Origin: Sphingomonas hengshuiensis
Lineage (GTDB): Bacteria; Pseudomonadota; Alphaproteobacteria; Sphingomonadales; Sphingomonadaceae
Length of the DNA: 36,853 nucleotides
Assembly: GCF_000935025.1 (NCBI RefSeq)
Contig: NZ_CP010837.1
Span: 1 to 36,853, forward strand
Reading direction: 5' to 3'
Under the pieces are notes generated by a model. The model did not search any database, was not told the origin of the DNA, and worked only from the letters and a program-made list of their open reading frames with translations. Within the stretch, counting starts at the first letter, position 1. Each line of letters begins with the position of its first letter. This document shows, piece by piece, positions 18,686-34,548 of this stretch. The position numbers and the translations under genes were made by a program.

Positions 18686-19250
18686 AAACCCCGTCCAGCT
18701 CCTCCGCCCCAAGCGCTTCGGCGATGCCCGTGGGTGGTTCACCGAAGTCTATTCGGTGCCCGTGTTCGAAGCGCTCGGCATCGGCTGCACCTTCGTCCAG
18801 GACAATCATTCGCTGTCGGTCCCCGCCTTCACGCTGCGCGGGCTGCATTTCCAGGTGCCGCCGCGCGGGCAGGACAAGCTGGTGCGGTGCGTTCGCGGGG
18901 CGATCTTCGACGTGGCGGTCGATGTGCGGCGCGGGTCGCCCACTTATGGTAAATGGGTCGGTGCCGAACTGAACGCCGAGAACGGGCATCAGCTCTTTAT
19001 CCCGATCGGCTTCGCGCACGGCTTCGTCACGCTCGAGCCCGATTGCGAAGTCAGCTATAAATGCTCGGACACCTATGCCCCGCAGCAGGATGGCGGCATC
19101 CGCTGGGACGATCCGGCGATTGGCATAGAATGGCCCCTCCCCGCCGGCGCGGTGCCCGAGCTGTCGCCCAAGGACGCCGTGCAGCCGCTGCTGGCCGATT
19201 TCGACAGTCCCTTTCCCTATGACGGGCGCCCGCTGGCCCCGCTCGCCTGA
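18678..19250 (+). CDS. rmlC: dTDP-4-dehydrorhamnose 3,5-epimerase
   Basis: The 190-residue cupin has the full RmlC signature: [18 protein letters not shown] with catalytic His and Lys, [24 protein letters not shown] and the Tyr in [13 protein letters not shown]. It epimerises C3 and C5 of dTDP-4-keto-6-deoxyglucose in the third-enzyme role of dTDP-L-rhamnose synthesis. ATG 18678 overlaps the end of the preceding membrane-protein gene, and rmlB follows after 11 bases, so the genes are probably co-transcribed. It differs from the second RmlC-like protein at 5 kb, which belongs to the CDP-sugar operon. Confidence 0.95.
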
Positions 19251-19261
19251 AGGATATTCCC

Positions 19262-20314
19262 ATGCGCATTTTCGTCACCGGCGGGGCCGGCTTCATCGGC
19301 TCGGCGCTCGTCCGCCACCTGATCGCGAATACGAGCCATGAAGTGCTCAATTTCGACAAGCTGACCTATGCCGGCACGCTGACCACGGTCGACGGAGTCG
19401 CGCAGTCGAACCGCTATCGCTTCGTCCAGGCCGATATCTGCGATGCCGAGGCGGTGCGCGCGGCGATCGCCGAGTTCCGGCCTGACGTCATCACCCATCT
19501 CGCGGCCGAAAGCCATGTCGACCGTTCGATCGACGGGCCCGGCGCGTTCATCCAGACCAATATGGTCGGCACCTATACGATGCTGGCCGAGGCGCGCGCC
19601 TATTGGCTGGGGCTGGAGCCCGAGGCAAAGGCGGCGTTCCGCTTCCACCATATCTCGACCGACGAGGTCTACGGCTCGCTCGGCGACACCGGGCTGTTCA
19701 CCGAGGAAACGCCCTATGACCCGCGCTCGCCCTATTCGGCGAGCAAGGCGGGGTCGGACCATCTCGTATCGGCATGGGGCCACACCTATGGCCTGCCGGT
19801 GCTGATCACCAATTGCTCGAACAATTACGGGCCGTATCACTTCCCCGAAAAGCTCATTCCGCTGATGATCGCCAAGGCGCTGGATGGCGAGACGCTGCCG
19901 ATCTACGGCAAGGGCGACCAGGTCCGCGACTGGCTCTATGTCGAGGACCATGTCCGCGCGCTGCAAACGGTGTTCGAGCGCGGGGAGCCGGGGCGAACCT
20001 ATAATATCGGCGGGCATAATGAGCGCCAGAATATCGAAGTGGTGCAGACGCTCTGCGCGATCCTCGACGAGCTGCGCCCGCGCGCCGATGGCCAGCCCTA
20101 TGCCGCGCAGATGGCCGAAGTCGCCGACCGGCCCGGGCACGACAAACGCTATGCGATCGACGCAGCGCGGATCGGTGCCGAACTGGGCTGGCACCCCGCC
20201 GAGACGTTCGAGAGCGGCATCCGCAAGACGGTGGAATGGTATCTGGCGAATGAGGGCTGGTGGCGCCCGCTGGTCGCCGCCAAGGCCGCCGAGCGCCGGG
20301 GCGTCGCCGCGTGA
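19262..20314 (+). CDS. rmlB: dTDP-glucose 4,6-dehydratase
   Basis: The 350-residue extended SDR starts [20 protein letters not shown], binds NAD through GGAGFIGS, and has the dehydratase active site STDEVYGSL with Tyr-x-x-x-Lys in [10 protein letters not shown]. It removes water from dTDP-glucose to give dTDP-4-keto-6-deoxyglucose. Length and motifs are full and undamaged. The last codons overlap an alternative GTG start for rmlD, and an 8-bp repeat array begins immediately after the stop. Confidence 0.96.
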
Positions 20315-20329
20315 GTGACGCGGACGACA

Positions 20330-20369
20330 TGTCGGCACGTATAGCTGTCGGCATGTCTACACCTCGACA
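20330..20369 (+). repeat. Octamer repeat array at the rmlB-rmlD junction
   Basis: Five consecutive in-phase octamers read TGTCGGCA, CGTATAGC, TGTCGGCA, TGTCTACA and CCTCGACA. Units one, three, four and most of five match the octamers of the array upstream of parA (consensus close to TGTCGRCA). Such a row inside a sugar-biosynthesis operon is not explained by coding constraint, because the first part lies upstream of the likely rmlD start. Confidence 0.7.
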
Positions 20370-21249
20370 GATACTCGTCACCGGCGCGAACGGCCAGCTC
20401 GGCACCGAACTGGCCCGCCTCGCCTGGCCGGATGGCTTTGAAGTGGTCGCGCTGGGCCGCGACGCGCTCGACCTGTCCGATCCCGCCGCGCTAGCGGCCA
20501 AGGTGGCGGAACACCCCTGGGCCGCGGTGATCAACGCCGCCGCCTATACCGCAGTCGACAAGGCGGAGAGTGACCAGGTGGCGGCCTGGACCGTCAACGC
20601 GCTGGCCCCCGCCGCGCTTGCCGCCGCCTGCGCCGCGGCGGGCGTTCCGATCGTCCAGGTCTCGACCGACTATGTCTTCGCCGGCGACCGGGCCGGCGCG
20701 TGGCAAGTCGACGACCCCGTCGCCCCGCTCGGCGTCTATGGCGCGTCCAAGCTGGGCGGCGAGCTCGCAGTGCGGACCTCGGGCGCGCGCCACGCAATCG
20801 TGCGCACCGCCTGGGTGGTGAGCGCGCATGGCAACAACTTCGTCAGGACGATGCTGCGCGTCGCGCCGAACAACCCGGTGCTGCGCGTGGTCGACGACCA
20901 GAGCGGCAGCCCGACCGGCGCCGCCGATCTGGCGCAGGCGCTGGCGACGATCGCAGTGCGCCTGGCCGAGGATGCCGACGCGCCTGTCGGAACCTTCCAT
21001 TTCAGCAATGAAGGCGCGGTCACCTGGGCCGGGTTCGCGCGCGCGATCTTCGCCCAGTCGGGGCTGCGCGGCGGCCCGGTGGCCGACGTCACGCCGATCG
21101 CCACCGCCGACTATCCCACCCCTGCCCGGCGCCCGGCCAATTCGCTGCTGAGCACCGCGACGCTCACTGCCGCCTATGGCATCGTGCCCCGCCCCTGGGA
21201 CGCGGCGCTGGCCGACATCCTCGATGAACTGATCGGAACACGCATATGA
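20353..21249 (+). CDS. rmlD: dTDP-4-dehydrorhamnose reductase
   Basis: The 298-residue SDR has [13 protein letters not shown] for NADPH binding, [10 protein letters not shown], and the active-site Tyr-x-x-x-Lys in [12 protein letters not shown]. It reduces the 4-keto group to give dTDP-L-rhamnose. ATG 20353 matches the usual family length and start. A GTG at 20311 overlapping the rmlB stop (GTGA) and an ATG at 20329 are alternatives that would add 14 and 8 residues. Those extra codons fall on an 8-bp repeat array that looks like plasmid partition DNA, which argues against them being real protein. The rmlA start overlaps the stop by 4 bases. Confidence 0.93.
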
Positions 21250-22124
21250 AGGGCATCATCCTGGCCGGTGGCTCGGGCACAAGGCTGCACCCGGCGACGC
21301 TGGCGGTGAACAAGCAGCTGTTGCCGGTCTATGACAAGCCGATGATCTATTATCCGCTGTCGGTGCTGATGCTCGCCGGAATCCGCGAGATACTGATCAT
21401 CTCGAGCCCCGAATATCTGGGTAATTACCGCAATTTGTTCGGCGACGGCGCCGGGCTCGGCCTCGCCATCTCCTATGCCGAACAGCCCCGGCCCGAAGGG
21501 CTGGCACAGGCGTTCACGATCGGCGCGGACTTTATCGGCACCGATAACGTCGCGCTGGTGCTGGGCGACAATATCTTCTTCGGCGCGCATCTGACCGACC
21601 TGCTCGCCAGCGCGGTCGCGCGCACCCACGGCGCGACGGTGTTCAGCTACCGCGTCGAGGACCCCGAACGCTACGGCGTGGTCGAACTCGGCGAAGGCGG
21701 CAAGGCGCTGTCGATCGAGGAAAAGCCCAGCGCGCCCAAGTCCAACCATGCGGTGACCGGGCTGTATTTCTACGACAACCGCGTCGTGGAAATGGCCCGC
21801 ACGCTGGCGCCCTCGCCGCGCGGCGAGCTCGAGATCACCGACATCAACCGGCTGTACATGGAAGCGGGCGATCTGTTCGTCGAACAGATGGGCCGCGGCT
21901 ATGCGTGGCTCGACACCGGCACGCATGACAGCTTGTTGGAGGCCAGCGAGTTCGTCCGCACGCTCCAGCACCGCCAGGGCATCCAGATCGCGTGCCTCGA
22001 GGAAGTCGCCTTCGAAATGGGCTTTATCGACGCCGACCAGGCGCGGGCGGCGGGCGAGCGGTTCGCCAAGACCGCCTATGGGCGCGCGATCTTGCTGGCG
22101 GTGGAGGGGCGTGATAGCTGTTAA
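21246..22124 (+). CDS. rmlA: Glucose-1-phosphate thymidylyltransferase
   Basis: The 292-residue nucleotidyltransferase begins [33 protein letters not shown], with VLGDNIFFG for metal binding, [19 protein letters not shown] and the [19 protein letters not shown] segment. All are standard for RmlA. It makes dTDP-glucose from dTTP and glucose-1-phosphate. It is usually inhibited by dTDP-rhamnose. The start overlaps rmlD by 4 bases. The C-terminal residues [22 protein letters not shown] end slightly unusually, and a diverged copy of this C-terminal motif lies 0.9 kb downstream, beyond the oxygenase gene. Confidence 0.95.
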
Positions 22125-23883: not shown

Positions 23884-24183
23884 CTAATCCCCGATCGGGC
23901 TTTCGCCGTGCTTGCGCAGGACGTCGTTGAAGGCTTCCGCCATCACGTCCTGAAGGCTGCGGCCCTGGCGCCTTGCCAGCATGTGCATCGCGAACGACAT
24001 TTCGGGGCTGAAAAAGCCCGCGATCTGCTTGCGGCCTTCGCGGCTTTGCGCGCGGGGGGCGGGTTGGGGTGCCCCCTCCCCTGCCCCGCTGGCGGGCGCG
24101 GCAATGGTCGGTGCGGGTGCCGGCGCCGGGATCACGGCGGGGGCGTGGCTGCGCAGATTGGCGAAACTGGGCTTGCGGCTCAT
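23884..24183 (-). CDS. Ribbon-helix-helix partition partner of ParA
   Basis: The 99-residue protein has a Pro/Ala-rich disordered N-terminal half and a C-terminal ribbon-helix-helix-like domain (QIAGFFSPEMSFAMHMLARRQGRSLQDVMAEAFNDVLRKHG). The layout matches small centromere-binding proteins of type Ib partition systems such as ParG. These bind short tandem repeats, stimulate ParA through a flexible tail and repress their own operon. It overlaps the parA stop by 4 bases. The octamer arrays nearby are its most likely binding sites, an inference from position and repeat size. Confidence 0.75.
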   Translation of the reverse strand: MSRKPSFANLRSHAPAVIPAPAPAPTIAAPASGAGEGAPQPAPRAQSREGRKQIAGFFSPEMSFAMHMLARRQGRSLQDVMAEAFNDVLRKHGESPIGD

Positions 24184-24833
24184 GCGGTGACTTTCTTGCG
24201 GCGCGGTGTCGGCATGTCTAGCTGTCTACACGTCCACGCGTAGAGTTGTCGAATTTCCTCGGCGGCCTTGCCCTCGGGCTCGGTCTCCATGACGCTGCGC
24301 CCCTCGGCGCTGGCGTGGCGATAGGCGGCGCGATCGGGGATCTGCAACGGGCAGGGCGGGGTGCCGAAGCTTTCGACCAGTTCGCCGGCCTCCTGATAAA
24401 CGCGCGGCGCATTGGGGCTGCCCGCGGTGAACACCACGAACGCCGGCTTCTTGAGCAGCTGGACCAGCTTCGCCGTGGTCTGGATCGCCGACAAGTCGAA
24501 CGCGCTCGGGCGGCACGGGACCAGCACCAGATCGGCGACTTCGACAGCGGCGCGCGCGGCGCTGTCGGCGTGCGGTGGGGTGTCGATCACGATCACTTCG
24601 GCGCCTTGCTCGAGCGCCTGCGCGACCTTCGCGGCGAGGCGGGGCGGGGGGCTGTCGATCACTTCGGGCGGGGCGTCGTGGCGCCAGGCGGCCCATTGGC
24701 TCGCGGTCGCCTGGGGATCGGTGTCGATGACCAGCGCGACGCGCCCCGCCTCCTGCGCCGCGGCGGCGAGATGCAGCGCAAGCGTGGTTTTCCCCGCGCC
24801 GCCCTTCTGGCTGATGATGGCGATGACCGGCAT
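24180..24833 (-). CDS. parA: ParA-family partition ATPase (type Ib)
   Basis: The 217-residue deviant-Walker ATPase has ISQKGGAGKTTLALHLAAAA at the N-terminus, including the signature Lys10. A' is VALVIDTDPQATASQW and Walker B is VIVIDTPPHAD. It lacks the N-terminal HTH of type Ia ParA, so operon repression must come from the RHH partner. It drives plasmid segregation on the nucleoid. The gene's 3' end carries a six-unit row of octamers similar to the array upstream of its start, so coding and site sequence overlap. Confidence 0.93.
   Translation of the reverse strand: MPVIAIISQKGGAGKTTLALHLAAAAQEAGRVALVIDTDPQATASQWAAWRHDAPPEVIDSPPPRLAAKVAQALEQGAEVIVIDTPPHADSAARAAVEVADLVLVPCRPSAFDLSAIQTTAKLVQLLKKPAFVVFTAGSPNAPRVYQEAGELVESFGTPPCPLQIPDRAAYRHASAEGRSVMETEPEGKAAEEIRQLYAWTCRQLDMPTPRRKKVTA
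24207..24254 (+). repeat. Octamer row within the 3' end of parA
   Basis: In-phase units on the plus strand are TGTCGGCA, TGTCTAGC, TGTCTACA, CGTCCACG, CGTAGAGT and TGTCGAAT. The first 24 bases match the row at 27457-27480 at 22 positions. The orientation is opposite to the array upstream of parA. Confidence 0.65.
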
Positions 24834-24847
24834 GGCGTTCTCCCTGG

Positions 24848-24966
24848 GTGTCTACATGCCGACAAGTCGACGCGGCGGCACGTGTAGACAGGCCGACTCG
24901 TCGATAGGCCGACCTGTCGACACTTCGTAGTGTAGAGACACCGACATGTCGACGTGCTGACACCCG
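24848..24966 (-). promoter_or_regulatory. parA operator / candidate centromere: tandem octamer array
   Basis: Read on the parA coding strand, this stretch is an almost unbroken series of 8-bp units, including TGTCAGCA, CGTCGACA, TGTCGGTG, TGTCGACA, GGTCGGCC, TATCGACG, AGTCGGCC, TGTCTACA, CGTCGACT and TGTCGGCA, with two or three degenerate units and one 2-bp phase slip. The best sub-motif, GCCGAC-N2-GTCGA on the plus strand, occurs at 24858, 24892, 24908 and 24940. Array position and unit size fit an RHH-protein centromere that also overlaps the parA promoter. Confidence 0.75.
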
Positions 24967-26384: not shown

Positions 26385-27320
26385 CTACTGCGCCGGGTCG
26401 GCACCCGATTCGGACTCGGCAGCCAGTTCGGGGGCGCGGCGCGAAATCACCACGCGCAGCGGGTGCGACTTGCGGCCCCGGCGCACCGGCGCGGCGTCGG
26501 CCGCCACGTCCTCCGCCACTTCGACGAGTGCGAGATGATAGTCGGGGATCGCGTCGGCTGCCGCTATGTGATTGAGCGCGGCGCGGAAATTGGGGAGCGG
26601 GTTCTGATACCCCACTTGCAGCCGGAACATCGCCAGGTCGATTTCGAGGCTGTCCGCCTCGCAGGTCGAGCGCGCCACTTCATAGATGCGCCGCTCGATC
26701 GGGCCGAGCTGGAAATAGGCATGGGCATAGTTGAGCACCTGGCGATCGCGCAGGATCGCGCGGAACAGCCAGTCGCACAGCCGGACCTTGACCGCCTTCA
26801 GCCGCCGCTCGCCGCTGCGCGTCCTGGTATAATGGAGCCGCGCCTCGGACAGCCATGAGAAAAAGCCTTCCTCGCCTTCGCCGCCCGCCTCGATATTGGT
26901 CTTGATCTGCGTCCCCTGGAGCCGCTCGAGCGCTTCGGACAGCCGGGCATAAGACCGCGCCGAATGGTTGCTGCCGGTGACCGAGAATAGATCATGCGCA
27001 GTGAACACGAAATCCTGGCCGACGGCCTCGCCCGCCTCGATCTTCGACGCCATCAGACTGGCGATATAGAGCACGATTTCCTTGTCGTAGATCGTCGCGA
27101 CCCCGGTGGCCGAGGGGCGGACCTCGATCGAGACCTTGTCGCTCTGATAGGCCAGCGGCTTCATCCAGGCATTCTTGGCGAGCGCGAAGAAGGGAAAGGC
27201 CATCAGCGAGCGTTCGCCGCGGATCTCGCCCTGCAACGGGCTGTCGAGCAGGAACAGGTCGCGCTGGGGCGCCGTCGCGGACTTGGCCGGCTTGGCGCGC
27301 GGGGCAGGGGGCTGGGTCAT
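26385..27320 (-). CDS. repA: Plasmid replication initiator, RPA family
   Basis: The 311-residue protein belongs to the replication initiator protein A family: SLMAFPFFALAKNAWMKPLAYQ, then IYDKEIVLYIASLM and TAHDLFSVTGSN, followed by a second winged-helix region (YFQLGPIERRIYEVARSTCE). It should bind the iterons and open the origin. ATG 27320 is chosen over a TTG at 27326 because an AGGA lies 8 bases upstream. That ribosome-binding site is embedded in an inverted iteron copy (27325-27346), which suggests RepA represses its own synthesis. Confidence 0.94.
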   Translation of the reverse strand: MTQPPAPRAKPAKSATAPQRDLFLLDSPLQGEIRGERSLMAFPFFALAKNAWMKPLAYQSDKVSIEVRPSATGVATIYDKEIVLYIASLMASKIEAGEAVGQDFVFTAHDLFSVTGSNHSARSYARLSEALERLQGTQIKTNIEAGGEGEEGFFSWLSEARLHYTRTRSGERRLKAVKVRLCDWLFRAILRDRQVLNYAHAYFQLGPIERRIYEVARSTCEADSLEIDLAMFRLQVGYQNPLPNFRAALNHIAAADAIPDYHLALVEVAEDVAADAAPVRRGRKSHPLRVVISRRAPELAAESESGADPAQ

Positions 27321-27324
27321 CGGC

Positions 27325-27423
27325 AATTCCTACTCGAAAGCACGAAGCGTTGCACCCATGGGCGCAACGACGCCGGGGAAAGCGCTGTTCCCGCGCTCGA
27401 GTTCGTGCTTTCGAGTAGGAATT
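27325..27423. promoter_or_regulatory. repA control region: 22-bp inverted iteron pair
   Basis: A 22-bp sequence containing the iteron plus GGAATT lies inverted at 27325-27346 and direct at 27402-27423, separated by 55 bp. The left copy covers the repA ribosome-binding site. Iteron plasmids commonly use such inverted operator copies for RepA dimers that repress repA, while direct iterons bind monomers at the origin. The promoter itself should lie in the 55-bp interval. Confidence 0.8.
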
Positions 27424-27441: not shown

Positions 27442-27488
27442 GGTCGGCGGAGACCCTGTCGGCGTGTCGAGCTGTCTACAGATCGACA
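27442..27488 (+). repeat. Octamer row next to the resolvase 3' end
   Basis: Units TGTCGGCG, TGTCGAGC, TGTCTACA and GATCGACA are in phase from 27457, with an isolated GGTCGGCG at 27442. The row overlaps the last codons of the resolvase gene and resembles the row inside parA. Confidence 0.6.
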
Positions 27489-28048
27489 CGGGCGCGATGC
27501 GCGCGCAGCACGCGCTGCACCGTCGATCGCGAGACGCGGAACAGGCTGGCGAGTTGCGACGGCGATCCCTCGCCCGCCTCGGCCCGCGCGATGATCTCGG
27601 CGCGCTGCTGCGCGGTCAGGCTGGGGCGGCGGCCCAGATGGCGCCCGGCGGCGCGGGCATGCGCCAGCCCGTTCAGCGTCCGCTCGCGGATCATCGCGCG
27701 TTCGAACTCGGCAAAGGCGCCCAGCGTCTGGAGCATCAGCCGCCCCGCCGGGGTGGTCGTGTCGATCGCCTCGGTCAGCGAGCGGAACGCCGCGCCCGCC
27801 GCCGCGACCGCCTCCAGCGTGAACAACAGGTCGCGCAGCGAGCGCGACAGCCGGTCGAGCTTCCACACCACCAGCACGTCGCCCGGTTGCAGCGCGACAA
27901 GCGCGCGGGCCAGTTCGGGCCGGTCGGCCTTGCCCCCCGACGCCTCTTCGCGGAACACCCGCCCACACCCCGCCGCATCCAGCGCGGCAAGCTGTGCCCC
28001 CAAATCCTGATGATCCCCGCGCGAGACGCGCGCATAGCCGATCTGCAT
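27476..28048 (-). CDS. Serine recombinase / resolvase
   Basis: The 190-residue small serine recombinase begins MQIGYARVSRGDHQDLGAQLAAL, with the nucleophile Ser9. It has the family segments DVLVVWKLDRLSRSLRDLL and GRLMLQTLGAFAEFERAMIRERT, and a C-terminal HTH (SPSQLASLFRVSRSTVQRVL). It probably resolves plasmid multimers or moves an element. ATG 28048 is chosen because the fold begins there. A CATAAT box ends only 7 bases upstream with TTGCGC 17 bp before it, so the message may be leaderless. A dyad like a crossover site lies 67 bp upstream. Confidence 0.92.
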   Translation of the reverse strand: MQIGYARVSRGDHQDLGAQLAALDAAGCGRVFREEASGGKADRPELARALVALQPGDVLVVWKLDRLSRSLRDLLFTLEAVAAAGAAFRSLTEAIDTTTPAGRLMLQTLGAFAEFERAMIRERTLNGLAHARAAGRHLGRRPSLTAQQRAEIIARAEAGEGSPSQLASLFRVSRSTVQRVLRAHRARVDL

Positions 28049-33433: not shown

Positions 33434-34001
33434 CCTCGACCAGCCCGAGCTGCTGCTCGACCAGGCCGCACAGCGTGTGGCCGATCAGGATATGCGCTTC
33501 CTGGATGCGCGCCGTCACGTCGCTGGGGACGATAATCGCATAGTCGGACAGCGCCTTGATCTGGCCGCCGTCGCGCCCGAGAAAGCCGATGGTCGTGATC
33601 CCCATTTCGCGCGCAGCCTCGAACGCGCGCAGCACATTGGCCGAATTACCCGAAGTCGAGATGCCGACCAGGCAGTCGCCCGTACGGCCCAGGCCGCGGA
33701 CCTGGCGGACGAAGACGTCAGCAAAGGAATAGTCGTTGCCGATGCAGGTCAGCGCCGAGCTGTCGGTATTGAGCGCCAGCCCCGCGAGCGGCGGGCGGTC
33801 CTTGATGAAGCGCCCGGTGAGTTCGGCGGCGAGATGCTGGCTGTCCGCGGCCGAGCCGCCATTGCCGCAGAACATGACCTTGTTGCCGGCCCGAAGCGAC
33901 GCGGTCGCCGCGCCGCTGGCCTCGGCAACTATGGTCGAAAGCGCGTCCAGACGTGCGAATACTTCCCGGTGCTCGGCAAGATTTGCGAGAAACAATGACA
34001 T
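33429..34001 (-). CDS. gmhA: Sedoheptulose-7-phosphate isomerase
   Basis: The 190-residue SIS-domain protein has KVMFCGNGGSAADSQHLAAELTGRF and CLVGISTSGNSANVLRAFEAA, both diagnostic for GmhA. It converts sedoheptulose-7-phosphate to D-glycero-D-manno-heptose-7-phosphate, the first step of the pathway. An AAGGA lies upstream of ATG 34001. It is transcribed opposite to the rest of the block and divergent from the nucleotidyltransferase gene 64 bp away. Confidence 0.94.
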   Translation of the reverse strand: MSLFLANLAEHREVFARLDALSTIVAEASGAATASLRAGNKVMFCGNGGSAADSQHLAAELTGRFIKDRPPLAGLALNTDSSALTCIGNDYSFADVFVRQVRGLGRTGDCLVGISTSGNSANVLRAFEAAREMGITTIGFLGRDGGQIKALSDYAIIVPSDVTARIQEAHILIGHTLCGLVEQQLGLVEA

Positions 34002-34065: not shown

Positions 34066-34548
34066 ATGCTAGGCAACATCCTTTGGCCCGCAGACGGGGT
34101 TGCGGCCGTTCACGCCGCCATCGCCCGACTACCCCGCCCCCTGGTCTTCACCAATGGGGTGTTCGATATCCTGCACCGCGGGCACGTCGAATATCTCGCC
34201 GACGCGCGCGCGCTAGGCGCCGCACTGATCGTCGCGGTCAATTCCGATGCGTCGGCGCGGATGCTGGGCAAGGGACCCGATCGCCCGCTCAATCGCGAGC
34301 AGGACCGCGCGATCGTCCTGACGGCGCTCGAAAGCGTGTCGCTTGTCCTCGGCTTCGACGAGAAGACGCCCTGCGCGCTGCTGCAATCCGTCCGCCCCGA
34401 CCTGTACGTCAAGGGCGGCGATTATGACATGGAAACGCTGGAGGAAACCCGGCTTATCCGAAGCTGGGGCGGCGATTCAGTGGCGATCCCGTTTCGCGAT
34501 GGCTTCTCGACCACCAACCTGGTCGACCGCATACGGCAGACTGCGTGA
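34066..34548 (+). CDS. rfaE2: D-glycero-beta-D-manno-heptose 1-phosphate nucleotidyltransferase
   Basis: The 160-residue cytidylyltransferase-fold protein equals the C-terminal half of HldE: VFTNGVFDILHRGHVEYLADAR with the nucleotide-binding H-x-G-H, then VKGGDYDMETLEETRLI and SFS-like GFSTTNLVDRI. It transfers a nucleotide, usually AMP, to heptose-1-phosphate. ATG 34066 is used; ATG 34027 is possible. The stop overlaps the GTG start of gmhB, so these two are coupled. Confidence 0.92.
   Translation: MLGNILWPADGVAAVHAAIARLPRPLVFTNGVFDILHRGHVEYLADARALGAALIVAVNSDASARMLGKGPDRPLNREQDRAIVLTALESVSLVLGFDEKTPCALLQSVRPDLYVKGGDYDMETLEETRLIRSWGGDSVAIPFRDGFSTTNLVDRIRQTA

Follow-up and report, generated by a model that had tools for sequence, protein, structure and literature searches.

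Octamer arrays around parA and at the rmlB-rmlD junction of a Sphingomonas plasmid as candidate centromere sites of a ParA/RHH partition system

The replicon, its partition genes and its octamer arrays

The window, i.e., the whole stretch of DNA that was analysed (36,853 bp from Sphingomonas hengshuiensis), is a complete replicon that makes up one entire contig of a 5.2-Mb genome; the other contig is the 5.19-Mb chromosome. Given its rep and par genes, we infer that this 36,853-bp replicon is a plasmid. The cargo includes exopolysaccharide genes, among them the rmlCBDA operon. In addition, the plasmid encodes Replication initiator protein A (RPA; 26385..27326, minus strand; PF10134, E = 7e-57), a serine resolvase (27476..28045, minus strand; PF00239, E = 4.1e-44), and ParA together with the product of an overlapping RHH gene. 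Within the rml operon, rmlB (19262..20314, plus strand) encodes dTDP-glucose 4,6-dehydratase, which is identified from its translation and a match to the Pfam epimerase/dehydratase family and is named after annotated relatives (rfbB), and rmlD (20353..21249, plus strand) encodes dTDP-4-dehydrorhamnose reductase (PF04321; TIGR01214 with 303.7 bits over 20329-21249). The likely start of rmlD is ATG 20353; the in-frame alternatives are ATG 20329 and GTG 20311.

The partition locus displays the traits of type Ib systems. The parA gene (24180..24833, minus strand; ParA family partition ATPase, NCBIfam NF041546, 207.4 bits against a cut-off of 180) encodes a small protein of 217 aa in which the match to the ATPase domain begins at residue 2-4, leaving no N-terminal DNA-binding domain, as is characteristic of type Ib. 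The RHH gene (23884..24183, minus strand; Pfam PF20605, Antitox_RHH, E = 1.9e-21), the product of which is the proposed type Ib centromere-binding ParB, encodes 99 aa and is located 3' of parA with a 4-base overlap with the parA stop, also in the type Ib manner; a sequence search of this protein against PDB yields no useful match. An RHH gene adjoins parA at all 11 parA loci that were fetched. The tandem short repeats typical of type Ib loci are present 5' of parA as well (24849-24962).

The segment 20330-20369, which lies 3' of the rmlB stop (20314) and ahead of the body of rmlD, reads TGTCGGCA CGTATAGC TGTCGGCA TGTCTACA CCTCGACA, with all units in phase. An extra unit, GGACGACA, at 20322-20329, 5' of the row, also scores above 0 with the octamer matrix described below, so that the complete array at the rmlB-rmlD junction, GGACGACA TGTCGGCA CGTATAGC TGTCGGCA TGTCTACA CCTCGACA, occupies 20322..20369 (no strand assigned). 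The units are of unequal quality, with CGTATAGC being, by eye, the furthest from the consensus. The original prediction, which was made from the sequence alone and placed an in-phase octamer row resembling the parA array at 20330..20369, is correct in place, phase and resemblance, and the overlap with a possible rmlD start that it noted is borne out as well, in that ATG 20353 lies inside the row.

The matrix used here is an 8-bp, palindrome-symmetrised matrix trained solely on the octamers of the parA promoter and the parA 3' end from the window and nine related plasmids, and the score of an array is the sum over three in-phase octamers, in bits. Accordingly, the two parA arrays of the window belong to the training set, and the rml and resolvase arrays lie outside it. 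At a score of at least 12, a scan identifies four arrays on the plasmid. The top score, 28.7 bits, is that of the junction array (at 20346-20369), with a matrix that was trained without any rml sites. The long array 5' of parA (24849..24962, no strand assigned; a candidate operator/centromere core) scores 27.9 at 24849 and includes two registers, one from 24849 and the other from 24883. The array within the parA 3' end (24207..24254, no strand assigned) scores 26.7, and the fourth array (27457..27488, no strand assigned; 25.8), which was absent from the original prediction, spans the 3' end and the stop of the resolvase gene. Elsewhere in the window, the best score is 10.0.

None of this appears to be due to chance. 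In 15 segments of 20 kb from the chromosome of the same strain (300 kb), no array reaches a score of 12 (the best place scores 11.7), and among 300 dinucleotide shuffles, none reaches 25.8 (the maximum is 21.5). Equally good rows at random places, which the original prediction had named as the outcome that would count against it, are not found in the scan of the whole replicon. When the spacing between units is set to 8, 77 array clusters are detected on ten plasmids (training sites included), compared with 0-12 at spacings of 5-7 and 9-13. Chance origin of the arrays is rejected on the strength of the shuffles, the chromosome sample and the spacing comparison. With at most one mismatch, TGTCGRCATGTCKACA is confined to two plasmid locations in the 5.2-Mb genome, the junction site and 24849; with two mismatches, matches are also present on the chromosome. 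A genome-wide repeat family is disfavoured, given that the chromosomal matches appear only at two mismatches, and the matrix scans agree.

Arrays on related plasmids and their placement

A ParA match is carried by 1074 PLSDB records. A set of nine PLSDB plasmids encode a ParA that is at least 80% identical to that of the window; records very near the source genome are possibly not in that set. All ten plasmids with such a ParA beside an RHH gene, the window included, carry 4-11 arrays at a score of at least 14 (four in the window and 5-11 in each of the nine relatives, 81 altogether), compared with 0-0.8 clusters on average on shuffled plasmids at a score of 14. Arrays of the same unit are thus found at several separate places on one replicon, as in dispersed centromeres. 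The arrays consist of 3-6 contiguous units, and 30 of the 81 have only three. Two plasmids outside this set, W03, which carries an rml operon and no such ParA, and W05, with a ParA that is 34% identical, have no array at a score of at least 12. On the plasmid W04 (NZ_CP098764.1), four array-like sites with scores of at least 14 are present (including those at 24959, 73239 and 74781), with no match to ParA or the RHH protein. These sites without a detectable ParA or RHH protein count against the interpretation of the arrays as partition sites; perhaps W04 has lost its par system or has a partner plasmid.

All nine relatives, which are of the Sphingomonas type, possess a site within about 40 bp 5' of the parA start, and eight of the nine (the exception is W12/L031) contain an array inside the 3' end of the parA coding sequence, so that the C-terminal codons of parA seem to double as a DNA site. 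Sites at distances above 0.8 kb are concentrated towards parA, with a mean normalised distance of 0.26 against 0.5 expected (n = 60, window included). For the analysis of placement relative to genes, the 77 sites on the nine relatives were reduced by five that lie outside the fetched annotation and by 18 within 150 bp of the parA ends, which leaves 54 (window excluded); the RPA remnant of W11 was added to the gene table by hand, as was the rmlD gene of W09 that spans the record start. Pseudogenes are absent from PLSDB annotation. In these annotated stretches, 40 of the 54 sites are centred between genes, compared with 18% expected, and 24 of the 54 have a stop codon at most 60 bp away. Among the 40 intergenic sites, 19 are no more than 60 bp from a stop (8.2 under the null) and six no more than 60 bp from a start (9.0 under the null). 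Sites that related plasmids have in common through descent make the p-values, here and in the comparisons below, too small, but the direction of each trend is clear. This placement is what would be expected of protein-binding sites put where they do the least harm around a centromere, rather than of promoter operators.

The many dispersed copies, and in particular the arrays at 24207 (the parA 3' end) and 27457, which share 22 of 24 bases, could also suggest a mobile repeat of the REP, MITE or palindromic-element kind with a history of spread among the plasmids. The sequences around the arrays speak against such an origin: across 312 pairs of sites, flank identity is 0.34, the same as for random sequence (0.34), so that no shared sequence extends beyond the units, and the single pair at 0.98 (10056 and 27204 on W01) lies beside a duplicated rmlB tail, with the next pair at 0.50. 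The strict period of 8 and the lack of arrays in the chromosome sample also disagree with a mobile element, which we consider very improbable. On W01 (CP099616.1), the second copy of the rmlB tail occupies 26958-27227 and is followed downstream by an octamer array; one flank of this array and that of the rmlB-rmlD array (10056) share 98% identity.

The near-palindromic octamers and the proximity of so many sites to stop codons are likewise compatible with RNA hairpins or terminators at gene ends, and the array upstream of parA (24840-24965, minus strand) does fold as RNA into one long imperfect hairpin (z = -3.9 relative to shuffles). The arrays in general do not behave in this manner: the folding energy of 60-nt segments at the 81 sites is -19.4 versus -20.2 for random windows, TTTT within 16 nt, as in an intrinsic terminator, is found at one of the 81 sites, the z value for the fold of the rml array is -1.15, and no terminator-like site is found in 19200-21300. 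Moreover, the period of 8 and the co-occurrence with the RHH gene (see below) would be left unexplained, and hairpins or terminators are a very improbable role for the arrays. Both the mobile repeat and the hairpin or terminator are rejected on flank identity, folding energies and the TTTT count.

The rml junction and the RHH gene across the genus

A survey of 121 genomes of the genus, in which a match to the RHH protein with E of 1e-25 or less is taken as strong, reveals that a pair of octamers (with at most one mismatch) is present in 23 of the 29 genomes with a strong RHH match and in six of the 92 without one (p = 5e-14). In 22 of these 23 genomes, at least one pair is located on the contig that carries the RHH gene. 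The exceptions that count against this association are the six genomes with a strong RHH match that lack an octamer pair and the six without a strong match that possess it.

The rmlB-rmlD junction was surveyed at 57 of 70 RmlD places, namely, 56 with E below 1e-100 (that of the window included) and the chromosomal copy of the same strain, with 13 weaker places excluded; a junction array was called at a score of at least 12. Such arrays are found in nine of the 18 operons located on an RHH contig, in one of 11 on other contigs of genomes with the RHH gene, and in one of 28 belonging to genomes that lack a strong RHH match (9/18 versus 2/39, p = 0.0002). The lone carrier on another contig is a 23.5-kb draft contig, and in draft genomes an "other contig" may still belong to the same replicon; the lone carrier without a strong RHH match is borderline (13.6). 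One of the nine same-contig carriers, G080, has no upstream RmlB match and is absent from the RmlB tree. The second rml operon of S. hengshuiensis, on the chromosome, has no junction array (-8.2). Three PLSDB plasmids combine the par pair with adjacent rmlB and rmlD, and their junctions score 26.0 (W01), 24.7 (W09) and 10.1 (W02); the weak row of W02, despite its par pair, counts against the interpretation as a partition site. Plasmids without the par pair have nothing at the rml junction (W03 and W04) or a weak row (W05, 8.3). Two of the genome records in the survey are apparently the same as plasmid records (G008 and W01, and G108 and W03).

When mapped on a tree of 60 RmlB C-termini, the presence of the array requires at least six changes (bootstrap range 5-7, with three changes forced by well-supported branches), compared with a mean of 10.4 for shuffled labels; in other words, the arrays are clustered in the tree. 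In the main rml clade (support 93/77; 100/99 for an inner group of 10 rows), the eight array carriers share a contig with the RHH gene, and the three rows without an array have no RHH gene on the same contig. Within this one clade, the junction site is thus kept or lost together with the RHH gene on the replicon. The nine array-less operons on RHH contigs are all found elsewhere in the tree, which indicates that an RHH gene on the contig is insufficient and that the junction site is dispensable.

Examination by eye of 16 array-less junctions shows that, in most of them, rmlD begins near the rmlB stop or overlaps it; in array-bearing junctions, the gap between rmlB and rmlD is wider and is largely filled by the array. 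The array extends into the rmlD start region in the window, G014 and G013. The units at the junction vary among plasmids, with the consensus kept.

This patchy distribution raises the question of whether the junction array is a neutral remnant, in which case arrays would arise or be copied near par and persist at the junction without any function. The gains or losses on the tree, including the forced ones, and the half of the same-contig operons that manage without an array are what such a scenario would predict. It is at odds with the tracking of the RHH gene on the same contig by the rml array, within a single clade too, and with the persistence of the consensus while individual units vary between plasmids, and overall appears quite unlikely.

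The original prediction also proposed that the RHH protein could influence rhamnose synthesis. In this case, the array would serve as an operator for repression or road-blocking of rmlDA by the RHH protein, and the amounts of rhamnose and exopolysaccharide made would depend on plasmid dosage. The likely start of rmlD lies within the row, and the W01 and W09 arrays also sit in the rmlB-rmlD gap. There are precedents as well: ParB sites of NAH7 are located near transfer genes, so that a partition protein regulates distant genes (PMC12421886), and the RHH ParBs of pSM19035 control copy-number genes (PMC9499535). Half of the rml operons on RHH contigs lack the array, however, so that it is not a conserved element of these operons; intergenic sites on the related plasmids favour stops over starts, and no sigma-70-type promoter-like site is found in 19200-21300. 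Control of rhamnose synthesis thus gains no positive support from these comparisons and is not favoured because half of the same-contig operons are devoid of the array; we regard it as unlikely. The absence of the array from related rml operons on parA plasmids, which the original prediction had held to be damaging when joined to a lack of binding, turns out to be true for half of them.

A putative dispersed type Ib centromere

The interpretation that best accounts for these observations is that the junction row is a putative RHH-protein site, one of four dispersed, centromere-like (parS-like) arrays of a type Ib ParA/RHH system; we put the probability of this at roughly three in four. Binding of the RHH protein and a contribution to partition are what we infer from the arrays, their period, their clustering, their placement at gene junctions and their co-occurrence with the RHH gene. 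As regards the two roles that the original prediction envisaged for the row, a secondary partition site is well supported by the comparison, given the octamers shared with the parA arrays, the empty chromosome sample, the clustering near parA and the occurrence of arrays at rml junctions mainly on RHH contigs; RHH control of rhamnose synthesis is not.

Under the proposed mechanism, RHH dimers would coat each 24-48-bp array cooperatively, with about one dimer per octamer. Enough RHH protein would be gathered by arrays that are spread over about 7 kb around par, one of them in the cargo rml operon, and all arrays jointly would form one partition complex that is moved by ParA. More than one array would be needed because spreading along DNA is not a property of RHH ParBs; indeed, such proteins are unable to extend past parS, and full activation of the ParA ATPase takes at least four contiguous units (PMC9499535).

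A bolder version of the dispersed-centromere scheme holds that these plasmids build their centromere partly from cargo and that occupancy of the rmlD array also lowers rhamnose output. Exopolysaccharide genes that settle near par would gain junction arrays and would lose them on a replicon without the RHH gene, and dispersed arrays would stand in for ParB spreading in an RHH system. If true, this would tie segregation to exopolysaccharide synthesis, although we consider the combined proposal improbable.

Several known systems resemble the putative dispersed centromere. The closest in site units and layout, on which the comparison is based, is the type Ib parCAB system of the Myxococcus plasmid pMF1, with six dispersed ParB sites that consist of AGATGTCT-like 8-bp units and are bound in EMSA; these iteron sites are located in the rep-par interval, in part within ORFs (PMC3235114). 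It differs by an additional gene, parC, and the available part of that report describes no site in a cargo operon (PMC3235114). The discussion of pMF1 names N15, RK2 and pSM19035 as further cases of dispersed sites (PMC3235114). The parS1-6 sites of the IncP-9 plasmid NAH7 are dispersed intergenic backbone sites, around par and near other operons, but they are 18-bp inverted repeats, the ParB protein activates transfer genes, and the paper does not use the word "ribbon" (PMC12421886). The archaeal SegB is an RHH centromere protein with scattered sites, many of which are clustered around its own locus; these sites, however, have a 13-bp motif, are chromosomal, and are more than 80% intragenic (PMC12284271). 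Thus, in view of pMF1, NAH7 and SegB, this kind of dispersed site is already known, and what is added here is the Sphingomonas-type family, the sites in a cargo operon, and their association with the RHH gene. Among the literature matches listed (titles and beginnings of abstracts, open-licence papers), none reports, for Sphingomonas plasmids, octamer arrays of an RHH protein or centromere sites in rml operons.

KorB and SopB are ParB proteins of the HTH type, and RepB of repABC replicons is of the HTH type as well. The KorB operators of RK2 and the SopB sites of N15 resemble the arrays described here in being dispersed ParB sites (PMC3235114); a reference title gives 12 KorB sites for RK2. 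Unlike the RHH system, KorB is a CTP-dependent sliding clamp (PMC11790492). The repABC replicon pAMI4 is, similarly to the present plasmid, an alphaproteobacterial replicon, and its extra parS, 11.5 kb away, is needed for partition, but this parS is a palindromic 16-bp sequence (PMC9040568). The delta/omega system of pSM19035 combines ParA with an RHH ParB and has several arrays of tandem short units per plasmid; it differs in the unit, the 7-bp non-palindromic WATCACW, with 7-10 units per array and six sites that overlap the promoters of copS, delta and omega (PMC9499535), whereas the Sphingomonas-type arrays consist of 3-6 near-palindromic 8-bp units and are mostly intergenic, often next to stops. 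The fit of RHH-type partition proteins to the current partition model has been called unclear (PMC9499535). A family of plasmids with 4-11 short arrays near parA that can be read from sequence makes a partition model for RHH proteins testable.

More distant ParA/RHH pairs appear to use other words. On two Sphingobium plasmids, with ParA proteins that are 71-73% identical, the RHH ribbon is GKKAMTGYF instead of GRKQIAGFF, and 4-5 arrays of a TGYAAACA-like word are present within about 2.2 kb around parA; two of the 4-5 sites per plasmid served to train the matrix for this word, which also has 0-4 matches per plasmid on the others (three on W05). The distant par copies of W12 (39% identity in ParA) have no clear array by eye. 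In the cases seen, the word and the RHH protein change together, and the 8-bp period and the positions appear to remain constant. Given that arrays bracket parA and that the word differs between RHH groups, the centromere words of further plasmids could probably be read from sequence.

Arrays at both ends of parA are observed in two other distant systems. On W14 (NZ_CP013268.1), one of the two Sphingobium plasmids, a second, co-resident ParA/RHH system (41% identity in ParA) has, as read by eye, GTATAC units with a period of 8 at 38188, 40315, 40649 and upstream of 41264, in positions similar to those of the TGYAAACA word in the first system; perhaps two orthogonal centromeres coexist on this plasmid. 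On W05 (NZ_CP101725.1), ATAAGC-type units with a period of 8 are seen by eye at both ends of parA (34% identity), at approximately 33840-33900 and 34490-34545.
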